Source of the DNA: Shimia sp.
Lineage (GTDB): Bacteria > Pseudomonadota > Alphaproteobacteria > Rhodobacterales > Rhodobacteraceae
Length of the DNA stretch: 64,000 nucleotides
Reading direction: 5' to 3'
Assembly (NCBI RefSeq): GCF_022448905.1
Contig: NZ_JAKVCW010000003.1
Coordinates: 62,001 to 126,000, forward strand
Shown: positions 15,518 to 20,805 of the stretch, in pieces
Position numbering within the stretch: the first letter of the stretch is position 1
Layout: each line of letters begins with the position of its first letter
The notes under the pieces: model-generated
What the model was told of the DNA's origin: nothing
The model's input: only the letters and a program-made list of their open reading frames with translations
Database searches by the model: none
Program-made: the position numbers and the translations under genes

Positions 15518-18334
15518 ATGGCCGGACAGCGGCAGATCACGGCGGTGTTGGGCCCCACCAACACAGGCAAAACCCATTACGCCATCGAGCGGATGCTGGG
15601 CTATCGCACTGGGGTGATTGGCCTGCCGTTGCGGCTTTTGGCGCGTGAAGTCTATGACCGCATCGTGGCCGCGCGCGGGCCGTCTGTTGTGGCATTGGTT
15701 ACCGGCGAGGAACGCATTGTGCCGCCGCGCGCTCAGTATTGGGTGGCCACGGTTGAGGCGATGCCTGAGGGTCTGGGCGCGGATTTTGTTGCTATTGACG
15801 AAATCCAGCTCTGCGCTGATCCTGAGCGGGGACATGTGTTCACCGACCGGTTGCTGCGGATGCGTGGCACGCATGAGACGTTGTTTTTGGGCAGCGACAC
15901 CATGCGCGGCACCATTGCGGAGCTGGTGCCAGAGGCGCAGTTTATGCGTCGCGAGCGTATGTCGACGCTGAACTATTCGGGGTCTCGCAAGATCAGCCGG
16001 ATGCAGCCACGCTCTGCCATCGTTGGATTTTCGGTGGACAGTGTTTATGCGATTGCCGAGCTGATCCGCCGTCAAAAAGGCGGCGCGGCGGTGGTGATGG
16101 GGGCGTTGAGCCCGCGCACGCGCAATGCGCAGGTGGAGCTCTATCAGAATGGCGATGTGGACTTTTTGGTAGCAACCGACGCTATTGGTATGGGGCTGAA
16201 CCTCGACATTGATCACGTGGCCTTTGCTTCCACCACCAAGTTTGACGGGCGGCGCATGCGGCCTTTGGCGCCCAATGAGCTGGCGCAGATCGCGGGCCGG
16301 GCCGGGCGGGGCATGAGCCACGGCACCTTTGGGGTGACCGGCGAAGCGCCGCCGCTGGATGAGGGTGTGGCCGAGGCGATCATGGAGCATCGCTTCACCC
16401 CGGTGCGCAAGCTGAATTGGCGCAATGCGGCGCTGCAATTTGGCACGGTGGATGCGCTTATCAATTCGCTCGAGGTTGGCTCTGACGATGAGTTGCTGAT
16501 CAAGGCGCGGGAGGCGGATGATTTGCGGGCGCTCAAAACCGTGTCGCGTGAGGCGGAAGTCATGGCGCGGGCAAGTGACGGGCGCTCGGTGCAATTGCTG
16601 TGGGATGTGTGCCGCATTCCGGATTTTCGCGGTATCAGCCACGCGGAACACGCGCAGCTGATTGAAAACATTTTTGGTTTTCTGCACGAAAAGGGCAAAG
16701 TGCCGGATGATTGGCTGGCGCGGCAGGTAAAACGGCTGGATCGCGCCGATGGTGACATTGACACATTGTCGAAACGTCTGGCGTTTATCCGGACGTGGAC
16801 ATATGTCGCACAACGTAAAAACTGGGTAAGTGACGAAAACCATTGGCGCGGGGAAACCCGCGCGGTAGAAGATCGCCTATCAGATGCTCTGCATGAGCGT
16901 CTTACTCAAAGATTTGTGGATCGGCGCACATCGGTTTTGATGCGCCGACTCAAGCAGAAGGAGGCCCTTTTGGCCGAAGTGAATGATAAAGGTGAGGTGA
17001 CCGTCGAGGGCGAATTCGTCGGTCGTCTTGAAGGATTCCGTTTTATTGCGGACAAAGAAGCCAGCGGTCAGGAAGCCAAGACGCTTAAGTCAGCGAGCTT
17101 GCAGGCGCTGGCGCCGCAGTTCCACCTGCGCGCGGATCGGTTTTATAACGCGCCGGATACGGAAATCGACTTTACTGAACAGGGTGGCCTCATGTGGGGC
17201 GAGCACGCGGTTGGCAAATTGGTGGCCGGCGCGGAACCTCTGAAGCCGATGATCGACGTGTTTGTCGACGAAGAAGCCGGAGCCGATGTGGCGCAGAAGG
17301 TGGAACGTCGCCTGCAGCACTTCATCGACCGCAAAATTGCGGCCCTGTTTGAGCCTCTGCTGAACCTGAGCAAAGACGAAGAACTGACCGGTCTGGCGCG
17401 CGGCTTTGCCTTCCGTATGGTTGAAAACCTTGGCATCATTCCGCGGGGCGATGTGGCCACCGAAGTGAAAGAGCTGGATCAGGACGCCCGCGGCACACTG
17501 CGCAAGCACGGCATCCGCTTTGGTCAGTTCACCATTTTCATGCCACTGCTGCTGAAGCCAGCCCCAACCCGTTTGCGTCTGGTGCTGTGGTCGCTGGCAC
17601 AAGGCCTGCAGGACTTCCCGGAATCGCCGCCCCCCGGTTTGGTGACAGTGCCAACCGTCAAAGACGCGCCACGTGGCTACTACGCCATGTCCGGCTACCG
17701 TGCGGCAGGCGAGCGGGCGATCCGCATCGACATGCTGGAACGGTTGGCCGATATGCTGCGCAGCGAAGACAGCCGTGGTGGTTTTGAAGCCAAGGCGGAT
17801 ATGTTGTCTATCACCGGCATGACACTGGAACAGTTCGCCGATCTGATGCAGGGCCTTGGCTATGCGGCAGAAAAAGGCGAGCGCGCGAAGGTGAAAGCGG
17901 CGCCAGAGGCGGCTCCGGCTGAAGAAGCGGCTGCTGAAACACCTGCAGAAGCGACTGACGCACCCGCGGCGGAAGAGGCACCTGCAGAAACTGAAGCTGC
18001 ACCAGAAGCTGCTGCGGCCGAAGCACCTGCAGAGGCCGGACCGGCCGAAGAGGCTGCCGAGCCGGAAGTGGAAGTGTTCTACACCTTCACATGGGCTGGC
18101 CGTCAGGGTGGCAACCGCAACCAGCAACGTCGTGGCGGTGGCCAGGGCCAGCGTCGCAACGACCGTCAGGGCGACAAGCCGCGCGGCAAGGGTGGCAAGC
18201 CAAAAGGCAAAGGTGGCCCGCGTCGTGACAATGGCCCCAAACAGTTCCAGGCCCGTCCTCCGAAAAAGGAGAAGGCGATTGACCCGGACAACCCATTTGC
18301 CGCAGCGCTTATGGGGCTGAAAGGCAAGGACTGA
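15518..18334 (+). CDS. Suv3-like DExH RNA helicase with Ala/Glu- and Arg/Gly-rich tail
   Basis: 938 residues. Superfamily 2 helicase of the Suv3 type, which in mitochondria drives RNA decay. Walker A is GPTNTGKT at residues 12-19, motif II DEIQ at 94-97, motif V ATDAIGMGLNLDID, motif VI QIAGRAGRG near 260. After the helicase core comes a long helical C-terminal region. From about residue 790 the protein becomes low-complexity (repeats of APAEEAAAE type), then a basic Gly/Arg/Gln/Lys-rich stretch that should bind RNA. The bacterial role is unknown; RNA turnover or ribosome work are candidates. The downstream S4 gene starts 4 bases after the stop, so they are coupled. Confidence 0.9.
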   Translation: MAGQRQITAVLGPTNTGKTHYAIERMLGYRTGVIGLPLRLLAREVYDRIVAARGPSVVALVTGEERIVPPRAQYWVATVEAMPEGLGADFVAIDEIQLCADPERGHVFTDRLLRMRGTHETLFLGSDTMRGTIAELVPEAQFMRRERMSTLNYSGSRKISRMQPRSAIVGFSVDSVYAIAELIRRQKGGAAVVMGALSPRTRNAQVELYQNGDVDFLVATDAIGMGLNLDIDHVAFASTTKFDGRRMRPLAPNELAQIAGRAGRGMSHGTFGVTGEAPPLDEGVAEAIMEHRFTPVRKLNWRNAALQFGTVDALINSLEVGSDDELLIKAREADDLRALKTVSREAEVMARASDGRSVQLLWDVCRIPDFRGISHAEHAQLIENIFGFLHEKGKVPDDWLARQVKRLDRADGDIDTLSKRLAFIRTWTYVAQRKNWVSDENHWRGETRAVEDRLSDALHERLTQRFVDRRTSVLMRRLKQKEALLAEVNDKGEVTVEGEFVGRLEGFRFIADKEASGQEAKTLKSASLQALAPQFHLRADRFYNAPDTEIDFTEQGGLMWGEHAVGKLVAGAEPLKPMIDVFVDEEAGADVAQKVERRLQHFIDRKIAALFEPLLNLSKDEELTGLARGFAFRMVENLGIIPRGDVATEVKELDQDARGTLRKHGIRFGQFTIFMPLLLKPAPTRLRLVLWSLAQGLQDFPESPPPGLVTVPTVKDAPRGYYAMSGYRAAGERAIRIDMLERLADMLRSEDSRGGFEAKADMLSITGMTLEQFADLMQGLGYAAEKGERAKVKAAPEAAPAEEAAAETPAEATDAPAAEEAPAETEAAPEAAAAEAPAEAGPAEEAAEPEVEVFYTFTWAGRQGGNRNQQRRGGGQGQRRNDRQGDKPRGKGGKPKGKGGPRRDNGPKQFQARPPKKEKAIDPDNPFAAALMGLKGKD

Positions 18335-18338
18335 GCGC

Positions 18339-18716
18339 TTGAGCGCTCCGTCCCCCAAACTTCGGGCTGACAAATGGCTTTGGCAGGCGCGGTTCTTCAA
18401 GACCCGTAGCCTGTCGGCCAAAGTCATCACTGGCGGGCATCTTCGCGTCAATGGACAGAAAATTGCCAAGGCCAGCCATGGTGTGACAATTGGTGACGTT
18501 TTGACCTTTCCACAGGCAAAACGTGTTCGGGTTATCAAGGTCCTGGCGCTTGGCGAACGACGCGGTCCAGCGCCCGAAGCGCAAACACTATATGAAGATT
18601 TGACGCCTGAGGAGAAACCTGTTCCGCGTAGCCCCGGCTCTGACGGAAAAGGGCGTCCGACCAAGCGCGATCGCCGCAATCTCGATCTTATGAAGTCTTC
18701 CCCGCTTGAAGAATAG
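18339..18716 (+). CDS. S4-domain RNA-binding protein (Hsp15/HslR family)
   Basis: 125 residues with a single S4 fold at the N-terminus: RADKWLWQARFFKTRSLSAK, then HLRVNGQKIAKASHGVTIGD. The basic C-terminal tail (SDGKGRPTKRDRRN) adds RNA contacts. Hsp15 rescues stalled 50S subunits carrying peptidyl-tRNA. The start is a TTG at 18339, 4 bases after the helicase stop, with AAGGA upstream; no ATG is available. Coupling to the helicase suggests a joint role on RNA or ribosomes. Confidence 0.92.
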   Translation: MSAPSPKLRADKWLWQARFFKTRSLSAKVITGGHLRVNGQKIAKASHGVTIGDVLTFPQAKRVRVIKVLALGERRGPAPEAQTLYEDLTPEEKPVPRSPGSDGKGRPTKRDRRNLDLMKSSPLEE

Positions 18717-18768
18717 GTAACTCTGATTTAGTCAAACCAGTGAACCGACTACAAGTGAGCTAACCCAA

Positions 18769-19107
18769 ATGACCTATGTCGTTACCGACAACTGCATCGC
18801 GTGCAAATACACCGACTGCGTAGAGGTATGCCCGGTAGACTGTTTTTACGAAGGTGAGAACACGCTGGTTATCCACCCTGATGAATGTATCGACTGCGGT
18901 GTGTGCGAGCCGGAATGCCCGGCAGACGCCATCCGTCCGGACACAGAGCCGGATATGGAAGAATGGGTGGAGTTCAACCGCAAGTATTCTGAACTCTGGC
19001 CGGTGATCATCACAAAGAAAGATCCAATGCCAGGGTATGAGGAAAAAGACGGCGAACCTAACAAACTGGAGAAATATTTCTCTGAAGCGCCGGGGGAAGG
19101 CGGTTAA
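18769..19107 (+). CDS. fdxA: 7Fe-4S ferredoxin FdxA
   Basis: 112 residues, usual for the seven-iron ferredoxins of proteobacteria. The first cluster motif is [18 protein letters not shown] and the second [12 protein letters not shown]; the extra Cys spacing in the first gives a 3Fe-4S plus a 4Fe-4S cluster. The C-terminal extension ([20 protein letters not shown]) is characteristic. Soluble electron carrier. Placed upstream of carD as in other Rhodobacterales, by memory. A GC-rich stem-loop (AGGCCG-ATT-CGGCCT, 19120-19134, inside TGTCCC / GGGACA) starts at the stop codon; its tail has only three T. Confidence 0.96.
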
Positions 19108-19109
19108 GC

Positions 19110-19149
19110 TGTCCCTGACAGGCCGATTCGGCCTGAAAAGGGGACAAGT
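19110..19149 (+). terminator. Stem-loop directly after fdxA (weak terminator)
   Basis: Outer arms TGTCCC / GGGACA and inner arms AGGCCG / CGGCCT. The T tract (AGTTT) is weak, so it may slow decay rather than end transcription. Confidence 0.4.
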
Positions 19150-19194
19150 TTACTGTCCAAGATGTACAATTCGGCCATAAGAGGCTGATACAAA

Positions 19195-19244
19195 AGCACA
19201 AACTGCCTGTGAAAGTCTGTCGCGCTTTCAAGGGGGCGTTTTTT
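19195..19244 (+). promoter_or_regulatory. carD leader, hairpin 1 with T6
   Basis: CCT-g-TGAAAG at 19206-19215 pairs with CTTTCA-AGG at 19225-19233 and is followed within 5 bases by TTTTTT. An outer dyad AGCACAAA (19195-19202) / TTTGTGCT (19242-19249) encloses it and would compete with the T-run, so the RNA can take alternative forms. AACTGCCTG just before the stem recurs before hairpin 2. Confidence 0.5.
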
Positions 19245-19261
19245 GTGCTATATTGCTGTTA

Positions 19262-19367
19262 CAGAGGACATAACTGCCTGAGAGCCATCCCTGCATTTGC
19301 TGAGGGTGGCTTTTTCTACCAGAGGACATTCCGCATCGGGAAACACCCTTTCCCGAGCGCAATTTTT
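19262..19367 (+). ncRNA. Candidate small RNA or leader RNA with hairpins 2 and 3 upstream of carD
   Basis: A TATATT -10-like hexamer at 19249-19254 would start transcription near 19261. Hairpin 2 is GCCATCCCT (19284-19292) / AGGGTGGC (19303-19310) with one bulged T, then TTTTT. Hairpin 3 is TCGGGAAA (19336-19343) / TTTCCCGA (19349-19356), then GCGCAATTTTT. CAGAGGACAT precedes both, at 19262 and 19320. A transcript from 19262 would end near 19315 or 19367, or read on into carD. No open frame explains the region. Inferred from structure only. Confidence 0.4.
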
Positions 19368-19403
19368 GTCTGGCAGGATGGGGGCTCACAAAGGAAGTAC
19401 TGC

Positions 19404-19913
19404 ATGAGCAAATCCAAGAAGAACGAGTTCAGCCCGAACGAATATGTTGTCTATCCGGCACATGGCGTTGGGCAAATCATTTCCATCGAAGAGCAGGAAG
19501 TTGCGGGGATGCAGCTGGAGCTTTTTGTGATCTCGTTTGAAAAAGACAAGATGACACTGCGGGTGCCAACCAACAAAGCCACCGAGATTGGCATGCGGTG
19601 CCTGAGCAGCCCAGACGTGATTGAACAGGCGATGAAGACCCTGAAGGGCAAAGCCAAGGTCAAACGCGCCATGTGGTCCCGCCGTGCGCAGGAATATGAG
19701 CAGAAGATCAACTCCGGTGATCTGATCGCAATTGCCGAGGTTGTGCGCGACCTGCACCGCACAGACGATCAGCGTGAGCAGAGCTATTCTGAGCGTCAGC
19801 TGTATGAAGCCGCGCTGGAGCGTTTGACCCGCGAAGTGGCTGCTGTTGCTGATGGTGACGAAGCTGCGGCTGCGAAGAAAGTGGACGACGTGTTGGTGTC
19901 CCGCGCCGCATAA
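19404..19913 (+). CDS. carD: CarD-family RNA polymerase-binding transcription regulator
   Basis: 169 residues. CarD binds the beta subunit of RNA polymerase and stabilises open complexes, mainly at rRNA and housekeeping promoters; it is essential in related Rhodobacter. Start ATG 19404 with AAGGAAG upstream gives MSKSKKNEFSPNEYVVYPAH, the normal N-terminus. The Tudor-like RNAP-interaction domain runs to about residue 70 (GVGQIISIEEQEVAGMQLEL, KDKMTLRVPTNKA), and the helical DNA-binding domain follows with MWSRRAQEYEQKINSGDL. The frame continues upstream to 19209 through the hairpin leader, but that part is not protein-like. Confidence 0.96.
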   Translation: MSKSKKNEFSPNEYVVYPAHGVGQIISIEEQEVAGMQLELFVISFEKDKMTLRVPTNKATEIGMRCLSSPDVIEQAMKTLKGKAKVKRAMWSRRAQEYEQKINSGDLIAIAEVVRDLHRTDDQREQSYSERQLYEAALERLTREVAAVADGDEAAAAKKVDDVLVSRAA

Positions 19914-19931
19914 GCGTTCTTTCAAATCTTC

Positions 19932-19967
19932 AAAAGGGATCGCGCCTCGGGCTGCGGTCCCTTTTTT
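19932..19967 (+). terminator. Rho-independent terminator after carD
   Basis: AAAGGGATCGC pairs with GCGGTCCCTTT (one G-T pair), loop of about 10, tail TTTTTT. Confidence 0.9.
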
Positions 19968-20034
19968 GTGCGCAATCAAACCGTTGCGCGGCTCTCTGTG
20001 TTGGCGTTTACTGCCTCTAAGGAGAGAGGCACAT

Positions 20035-20805
20035 ATGGAAAACCTCAAGGCAACGGTGGAGCGGCTCTACACGGATCACACGCCGGGCGCGGTGAAATTC
20101 CGCTATGCGCTGATCATTTTCGATTTTGTCACCATCCTGTTTTTTATCGCCACTGCCCATGTGCCTTATGGGGCGGGCCTGATCCTCGCCAGCCGTCTAA
20201 CTGGAGTGATCATCTGCCTCGACCTGATTGCCCGCTGGTGGGTGGCGGAGGACCGGCGGTTTTTCCTAACGCGGATTTACACAATCGCCGATGTGGTGGT
20301 GATTGGCTCGCTGTTCATTGACCCATGGCTGTCCGGTGATCTGGCCTTTCTGCGGGTGCTACGCGGTCTGCGCCTGATCCATTCTTACCATTTGCTCTAT
20401 GACCTGCGCCGGGACAGCCGCTGGTTTCGCACCCATGAGGATGCGGTGATCGCGACGATCAATCTGTTTGTGTTTGTCATGGTGACATCGGCGTCGTCGC
20501 TGGTGTTTTTCATCGACAAAGAGGCCACCGCCACGCCCTTCATCGATGCGATGTATTTCACCGTGGCGACACTCACGACCACGGGCTACGGTGACATCAC
20601 TCTGGACAGTCCTGGCGGCAAGCTGTTTTCGATCTGCGTGATGGTGGGCGGCGTGGCGCTGTTTGTGCAACTGGCGCAGGCGATCATCAAACCGCAAAAG
20701 GTCCGCCACAAATGCGAAAGCTGCGGCTTACTGCGGCATGATCCCGACGCGGTGCATTGCAAGCACTGCGGCGCCACGATCTGTATCGAGACGGATGGCG
20801 CTTAG
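20035..20805 (+). CDS. Voltage-gated K+ channel with C-terminal zinc ribbon
   Basis: 256 residues; six membrane segments. S1 YALIIFDFVTILFFIATAH, S2 GVIICLDLIARWWV, S3 TIADVVVIGSLF, S4 with spaced arginines (FLRVLRGLRLIHSYHLLYDL), S5 ATINLFVFVMVTSASSLVFF, pore helix and selectivity filter TLTTTGYGDI, S6 LFSICVMVGGVALFVQL. After S6 comes a CxxC...CxxC ribbon (CESCGLLRHDPDAVHCKHCG), unusual for a Kv-like channel. ATG 20035 follows GGAGAG. It ends 4 bases inside the convergent cobS gene. Probably a homotetramer in the inner membrane. Confidence 0.92.
   Translation: MENLKATVERLYTDHTPGAVKFRYALIIFDFVTILFFIATAHVPYGAGLILASRLTGVIICLDLIARWWVAEDRRFFLTRIYTIADVVVIGSLFIDPWLSGDLAFLRVLRGLRLIHSYHLLYDLRRDSRWFRTHEDAVIATINLFVFVMVTSASSLVFFIDKEATATPFIDAMYFTVATLTTTGYGDITLDSPGGKLFSICVMVGGVALFVQLAQAIIKPQKVRHKCESCGLLRHDPDAVHCKHCGATICIETDGA

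Follow-up and report, generated by a model that had tools for sequence, protein, structure and literature searches.

Two hairpins and a long-range helix, here called P2, P3 and P1, make up a predicted leader structure upstream of carD that is common to Rhodobacteraceae and well supported by comparison of sequences from the family. Promoter conservation, family-level covariation of P1, P2 and P3, the positions of the U-runs, and an enrichment of 5′-end AUG codons and of particular frame lengths form the observed basis for a model in which a cis-acting leader may tune carD expression through premature termination and through ribosome occupancy opposing P1. We judge this model to stand about midway between right and wrong.

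The fdxA–carD gap and the carD promoter

The sequence under study is a 64,000-nucleotide stretch of Shimia sp. DNA (the window). Its fdxA and carD genes, named as in an earlier note on the same DNA, and the elements between them are arranged as follows.

18769–19107, + strand: fdxA (ferredoxin), an ORF of 112 aa, the gene upstream of carD
19110–19146, + strand: hairpin directly 3′ of the fdxA stop codon, TGTCCCT...AGGGGACA, with inner arms CAGGCC/GGCCTG and CGATTCG around the loop
19195–19249, + strand: hairpin 1 with its outer dyad, terminator-like, of the fdxA transcript; its T-run at 19239–19244 is also the carD promoter spacer
19226–19254, + strand: predicted carD promoter, with a weak −35 (TTTCAA, 19226–19231), a 17-bp spacer containing the T-run and an extended −10 (TGCTATATT, 19246–19254), from a 22-member genus alignment
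19404–19913, + strand: carD (CdnL-type RNA polymerase-binding regulator), 169 aa

Comparisons began with 203 loci, of which 196 had a carD match; these gave 174 distinct leaders, then 172 after two were dropped by promoter score or distance, and finally 143 clusters. The 196 loci include 80 that were the best by CarD match of 533 (86–98% identity among these best 80). From 199 family genomes came the 30 best and another 60 picked by hand, and of 25 genus genomes 22, among them that of the window, entered through a DNA match, the other three having no match. Of the 196 fetched loci (duplicates included), 195 carry an fdxA relative ahead of carD; the sole exception is L203, a stretch of 661 bases.

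The earlier note had described three stem-loops in this gap, each followed by a T-run, as a terminator-like leader ahead of carD. The stem-loops are present, as are the T-runs (T6 at 19239–19244, T5 at 19311–19315 and T5 at 19363–19367), and a leader with terminator-like hairpins is supported, with hairpins 2 and 3 as its members. The three-hairpin array was rejected, since hairpin 1 precedes the conserved carD promoter, the spacer of which is formed by the T-run of this hairpin. The statement that no gene ends there proved incorrect: hairpin 1 stands about 100 nt past the end of fdxA at 19107 and can therefore be the fdxA terminator. Being upstream of the promoter, it would belong to the fdxA transcript and lie outside the carD leader. 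The outer dyad (19195–19202/19242–19249) had been proposed to open hairpin 1, as in an attenuator; in the MFE fold the dyad encloses hairpin 1, the two being nested, which rules out that role. Dyad and hairpin both lie upstream of the predicted carD start. Fold z-scores were −0.9 for hairpin 1 alone and −2.7 with the outer dyad. Paired exactly as drawn, hairpin 1 has 70.5% of cells paired in the genus, and a short form, with arms around the −35 region, covaries across the 143 clusters (z −8.1).

Aligned genus gaps share a conserved block, TTTTTTG-TGNTATANT, which corresponds to an extended −10 promoter with a weak −35 17 bp upstream. In the window the TATATT box lies at 19249–19254, and the predicted carD transcription start, placed from the −10 box, is 19261; a start near this position had been suggested before and now has the support of the conserved promoter. 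A promoter score devised after the genus alignment had been seen was 11 or higher for 131 of the 174 distinct loci, as against 4 of 522 shuffles. At the inclusion cut-off of 9.4 the figures were 173/174 and 102/522, and given this permissive cut-off some +1 placements may be wrong. The commonest base at the predicted +1 is A (91/143 clusters). Hairpin 1 and the promoter thus appear to form a composite terminator-promoter in which the hairpin with its T-run can end fdxA transcripts. We also observed that the T-tract of this terminator-like hairpin doubles as the −35/−10 spacer (19222–19254), with the −35 region between the hairpin arms.

Control of carD might lie at this promoter alone, with CarD repressing its own promoter and the leader hairpins just stabilising the mRNA. 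For R. sphaeroides, a citing passage in PMC10232725 reports that CarD acts in vitro as a repressor of the carD promoter, and the promoter is strongly conserved here; the gene is the same, the promoter probably so, and the reported control acts at the promoter level. The idea in the earlier note that self-control of carD would be a new circuit is to that extent anticipated. The passage of PMC10232725 on CarD autoregulation does not mention a leader RNA. Promoter-only control leaves unexplained the position of P1 by the Shine-Dalgarno sequence, the U-runs at fixed places and the 5′-end AUG, all described below, and we regard it as improbable.

Several observations concern the flanks of this region. 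The hairpin directly after the fdxA stop folds well (z −5.3) and in the window contains CGATTCG, which includes GATTC, a GANTC site; GANTC is the CcrM methylation motif of Alphaproteobacteria. By raw count, 114 of 142 clusters have a GATTC no further than about 60 nt from the fdxA end. Downstream, a likely carD terminator at 19926–19970 was seen by eye (GGGATCGCGCCTCGGGCTGCGGTCCC, then T6). A further 27 loci, from other families of the class, were inspected by eye, and in several of them the start of carD could not be located. Hairpins with T-runs and extended −10-like boxes are seen ahead of carD in this set as well (L205, L208, L212, L215, L219, L226), and in L205 CAGAAACG and CGTTTCTG could pair across the leader.

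Helices of the carD leader

The features of the predicted leader are listed here.

19261–19403, + strand: predicted carD 5′ UTR, 143 nt from the start placed by the −10 box, holding hairpins 2 and 3
19276–19279, + strand: putative P1 5′ strand (GCCT), within conserved TGCC, from RNAalifold on 22 leaders
19282–19316, + strand: P2 (hairpin 2), stem AGCCATCC/GGGTGGCT and T-run 19311–19315
19319–19373, + strand: P3 (hairpin 3), inner CGGGAAA/TTTCCCG (19337–19355), middle CGC/GCG, T-run 19363–19367, outer CCAGA/TCTGG (19319–19323/19369–19373)
19381–19385, + strand: putative P1 3′ strand (within GGGGC), register uncertain by one base, ending 18 nt before the carD AUG
19391–19395, + strand: carD Shine-Dalgarno sequence (AAGGA), kept in most aligned genus rows

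A genus-level model, R1, run over 295 family genomes gave 6 matches at E ≤ 0.01, with about three expected by chance: two were from the same genus, G124 was at carD, and G077, G151 and G242 (E 5.5e-4 to 0.0043) were not at carD. Since R1 does not reach the family, carD-anchored leaders were used instead. When 23 divergent leaders were aligned with MAFFT, RNAalifold yielded 3 pairs only, because the alignment does not register P1, and we therefore used strand-swap permutations, in which the best contiguous helix between two windows of each cluster is compared with that obtained when strands are exchanged between clusters.

P1 joins +11 to +24 of the leader to −28 to −15 before the carD AUG with z −9.4 over 143 clusters, a score which, like all permutation z-scores here, is not an exact probability, given the common descent of the clusters. 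The signal was diluted in an initial duplex test over wide windows, with own rank ≤ 0.05 in 21/143; a contiguous-helix test with wide windows (+7 to +32, −38 to −9) gave 24/143, and a windowed map then localised the signal. The choice of the P1 window followed the wide-window result, and the map covers 49 window pairs, with z of −4.3 to −7.6 in overlapping windows and about −2.5 to +1.8 off site. In the focused test 0 of 20000 permutations reached the observed value, and two disjoint sets of clusters gave z −6.9 (n = 59) and −6.3 (n = 74). The strands can be of unrelated sequence, as in L174 (ATCTTGACCG/CGGTCAAGAT), L045 (CCAGGATC/GATCCTGG) and L141 (TCTGCATA/TATGCAGA). In clusters with a strong helix and a recognisable Shine-Dalgarno word, P1 ends at a median of 7 nt before that word.

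The predicted strength of P1 varies among leaders. Stacking of −11 kcal/mol or better is reached in only 59/143 clusters, and P1 is in the MFE fold of 78/143 leaders versus 181/715 shuffles. Within the genus, RNAalifold finds the four pairs GCCT/GGGC in 22, 20, 22 and 21 of 22 leaders; the nine genus clusters tested alone gave no support for P1 (z +0.6). In the window itself P1 is absent from the MFE fold, and its pair probability is at most about 0.15, falling below 0.05 with the first 30 nt of carD added. A long pairing of the window at about 19279–19294/19374–19388, seen by eye, would exclude P2; it was dropped, not being kept in relatives.

Single-hairpin fold z-scores in the window were −2.5 for hairpin 2 and −3.4 for hairpin 3. 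Genus P2 has a near-invariant ACTGCCT followed by AGCCATCC, the pairing arm GGGTGGC/GGATGGC and the T-run; 94.8% of cells are paired (18 distinct rows) and its covariation score was reached by 0/500 shuffles, while pairs changed on both sides were matched by 87/500. For genus P3, 85.7% of cells are paired (90.0% in the outer helix CCAGA/TCTGG) and 25/500 shuffles reached the covariation score, so that at this level P3 covariation is not beyond the controls in every measure. The family test used 113 long leaders (134–166 nt), with 10 short leaders tested apart and 20 of other lengths left out. It gave z −8.4 for P2, and −6.6 and −7.3 for P3 with −3.4 for the outer part; windows off P2 and P3 scored mostly −2 to +2.8, and the ten short leaders alone were weak (best z −2.7). 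Covariation among homologous leaders, whose lack had been named beforehand as a reason to abandon the leader, was thus found at the family level. Thirteen clusters have leaders of at most 125 nt (L166, L168, L171, L173, L174, L177, L179, L182, L184, L187, L191, L195, L197). Overall, leaders fold modestly better than shuffles (median z −1.2).

These results bear on the view that the hairpins arose by chance and that nothing besides the fdxA terminator and the promoter is functional. A generic terminator scan of 18000–20400 found 3 sites versus 2.5 expected and did not single out the region. The direct repeats, which are present in the window (AACTGCCTG at 19201 and 19272, CAGAGGACAT at 19262 and 19320), are not conserved in most relatives: by eye, no more than 7 of the 22 genus members aligned (L001–L006, L009) keep two exact copies of CAGAGGACAT, and the repeats were rejected as modules, and AACTGCCTG precedes hairpin 1 in the window alone among the 22. 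Against chance stand the permutation-controlled covariation of all three helices, P1 to P3, and the fold of the whole gap (19108–19403), with an MFE of −112.9 versus −91.6 (sd 5.1) in 200 dinucleotide shuffles (z −4.1). We consider chance hairpins very improbable indeed.

A different possibility is that the P1-P2-P3 junction and UUUUGUCGCC bind a ligand or a protein, possibly CarD, and so set access to the carD ribosome site. A three-helix junction directly before the Shine-Dalgarno sequence would suit such a role, and TTGTCG occurs within −65 to −20 in 44/143 clusters versus 3 in a control window. Alignment A5 (23 sequences) argues the other way, with few invariant columns and 59% mean identity, the junction helices being conserved; P2 is seemingly absent, by eye, from the 13 short-leader clusters, and Rfam gave 0 matches at the gathering threshold over the whole window and 0 up to E 5 over 19050–19450. 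A riboswitch or protein-binding leader therefore seems to us quite unlikely.

T-runs occur at preferred places in the leaders, with starts clustering near −39 to −48 and −92 to −104. They follow P3 (−50 to −33) in 71/143 and P2 (−106 to −89) in 38/142, as against 3 to 15 in windows off both peaks. A hairpin of −8 kcal/mol or better with a T-run was present in 78/143 leaders versus 28/429 shuffles; the other 65/143 lack one by the same measure. The T-run of hairpin 3 in the window, although present as described earlier, does not directly follow the stem and lies several bases past it, within the outer helix CCAGA/TCTGG; in the alignment of 22 genus members at least 4 (L005–L007, L019) have this T-run interrupted. 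G+C-rich hairpins with a U-run at a fixed place upstream of a gene, the pattern by which intrinsic terminators or attenuators are recognised in sequence, are thus found ahead of carD.

Such hairpins might mainly yield a short terminated sRNA of about 55 or 105 nt acting in trans, with carD expressed by read-through. UpsM of R. sphaeroides is described in passages of PMC5089854 as an sRNA of this kind, derived from a 5′ UTR, which has an sORF and a Rho-independent terminator read through about once in 100 times. In the genus, an invariant TGCC stands before P2 and four or more T after it in 22/22. P1, the strongest covariation, pairs across both U-runs using sequence downstream of them, which argues that selection acts on the full read-through mRNA and not on terminated RNA alone, and the 5′ single strand shows no sequence conservation beyond the genus. 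An sRNA as the main product is in our view unlikely. A search of the genome for the P2 element revealed no second locus among six matches at E ≤ 10, which were carD (1.2e-14), hairpin 1 itself (0.086) and four more (5 to 9.4).

Start codons and short frames at the 5′ end

An ATG starts at +1 to +11 in 89 of 143 leaders, whereas shuffled leaders had a mean of 23.5 (sd 4.4) and a maximum of 42 in 2000. Of the frames opened by an early ATG in 92 leaders, 23 run for 5 codons and 29 for 16–20 codons before the first in-frame stop, with no peaks at these lengths in the other two frames; 11 more close after one or two codons, and no stop occurs within 25 in 15. Examples are MTKTA*, MMRFA* and MLPMT*. 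Where a strong P1 and an AUG occur together, the frame extends to the 5′ strand of P1 in 36 of 42 cases. Among the short-leader clusters, 11 of 13 have a 5′-end AUG, several with 5-codon frames of the MLP type.

An early AUG is lacking in 51/143 clusters, the window's included. The window's cluster has no ATG 4–18 nt after the −10 box, so the window itself does not carry a uORF of the trpL type, and the same is true of early AUGs in 20 of its 21 aligned genus relatives, L019 being the only one with such a codon. AUG, P1 and terminator-like hairpins show no mutual association (Fisher p 0.12 to 1.0), and P1 energy differs little with and without the AUG (p 0.024). A tight switch would predict an association of the three, and its absence counts against such a switch.

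The nearest parallel for a start codon at the very 5′ end is trpL (rnTrpL) of Sinorhizobium meliloti, also an alphaproteobacterium, in which a leaderless uORF at the mRNA 5′ end is followed by a terminator (passages of PMC7298713, PMC10117765). According to these passages trpL is 14 codons long and its Trp codons serve to sense tryptophan; among the carD mini-ORFs, in contrast, lengths of 5 or 16–20 codons are the most frequent, and no shared amino-acid signal was seen.

Models for control of carD

In the model that we prefer, the cis-acting leader, a share of the transcripts would end at the U-runs that follow P2 and P3. In mRNA that is read through, P1 would lower carD translation by forming next to the ribosome site, and a ribosome on the nearly leaderless mini-ORF would keep P1, and with it P2, open. 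Expression of carD might thereby follow translation capacity. Since the window has no early AUG and its P1 is short and weak, mainly attenuation by P2 and P3 would be expected in Shimia.

A more specific version, that the carD leader is a sensor of ribosome availability, we offer as a tentative and unlikely extension. A ribosome at the leaderless 5′-end AUG would mask the arm of P2 and the strand of P1 there; when free ribosomes are scarce, P1 would close by the Shine-Dalgarno sequence and the P2 and P3 terminators would form. A 5-codon frame would suffice, since occupancy would be read and not amino-acid content.

Known systems resemble parts of this arrangement. UpsM, at dcw/mraZ in Rhodobacteraceae, likewise belongs to a long 5′ UTR ahead of a core growth gene, in which a small frame is present and a terminator hairpin precedes the gene; it differs in its gene, in a leader of 268 nt and in having its sRNA and read-through shown by experiment (passages of PMC5089854). 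The carD leader differs from UpsM in a predicted helix by the Shine-Dalgarno sequence and a nearly leaderless mini-ORF, both sequence-based, and the two are likened by description, not by sequence. Mycobacterial carD is likewise under post-transcriptional control by RNA, through AscarD, with Clp control besides (a passage of PMC8820732); AscarD is an antisense RNA over the carD coding region and is not a leader structure. Caulobacter CdnL is cleared on starvation, and transcriptional control is not sufficient there, ClpXP acting on the protein, as stated in parts of PMC11034885, the main text of which lacks the words "leader" and "untranslated". In limited searches of the open-licence literature we found no description of sRNA or leader work on carD in Rhodobacter, which is weak evidence of absence.

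A passage of PMC8407463 proposes that in Alphaproteobacteria CarD/CdnL activates rRNA promoters together with many housekeeping ones. If the sensor version is true, an activator of ribosomal RNA genes would be made only at high translation capacity. The covarying leader and the 5′-end mini-ORF provide a defined hypothesis by which a global activator of transcription may be coupled to translation in Rhodobacteraceae.
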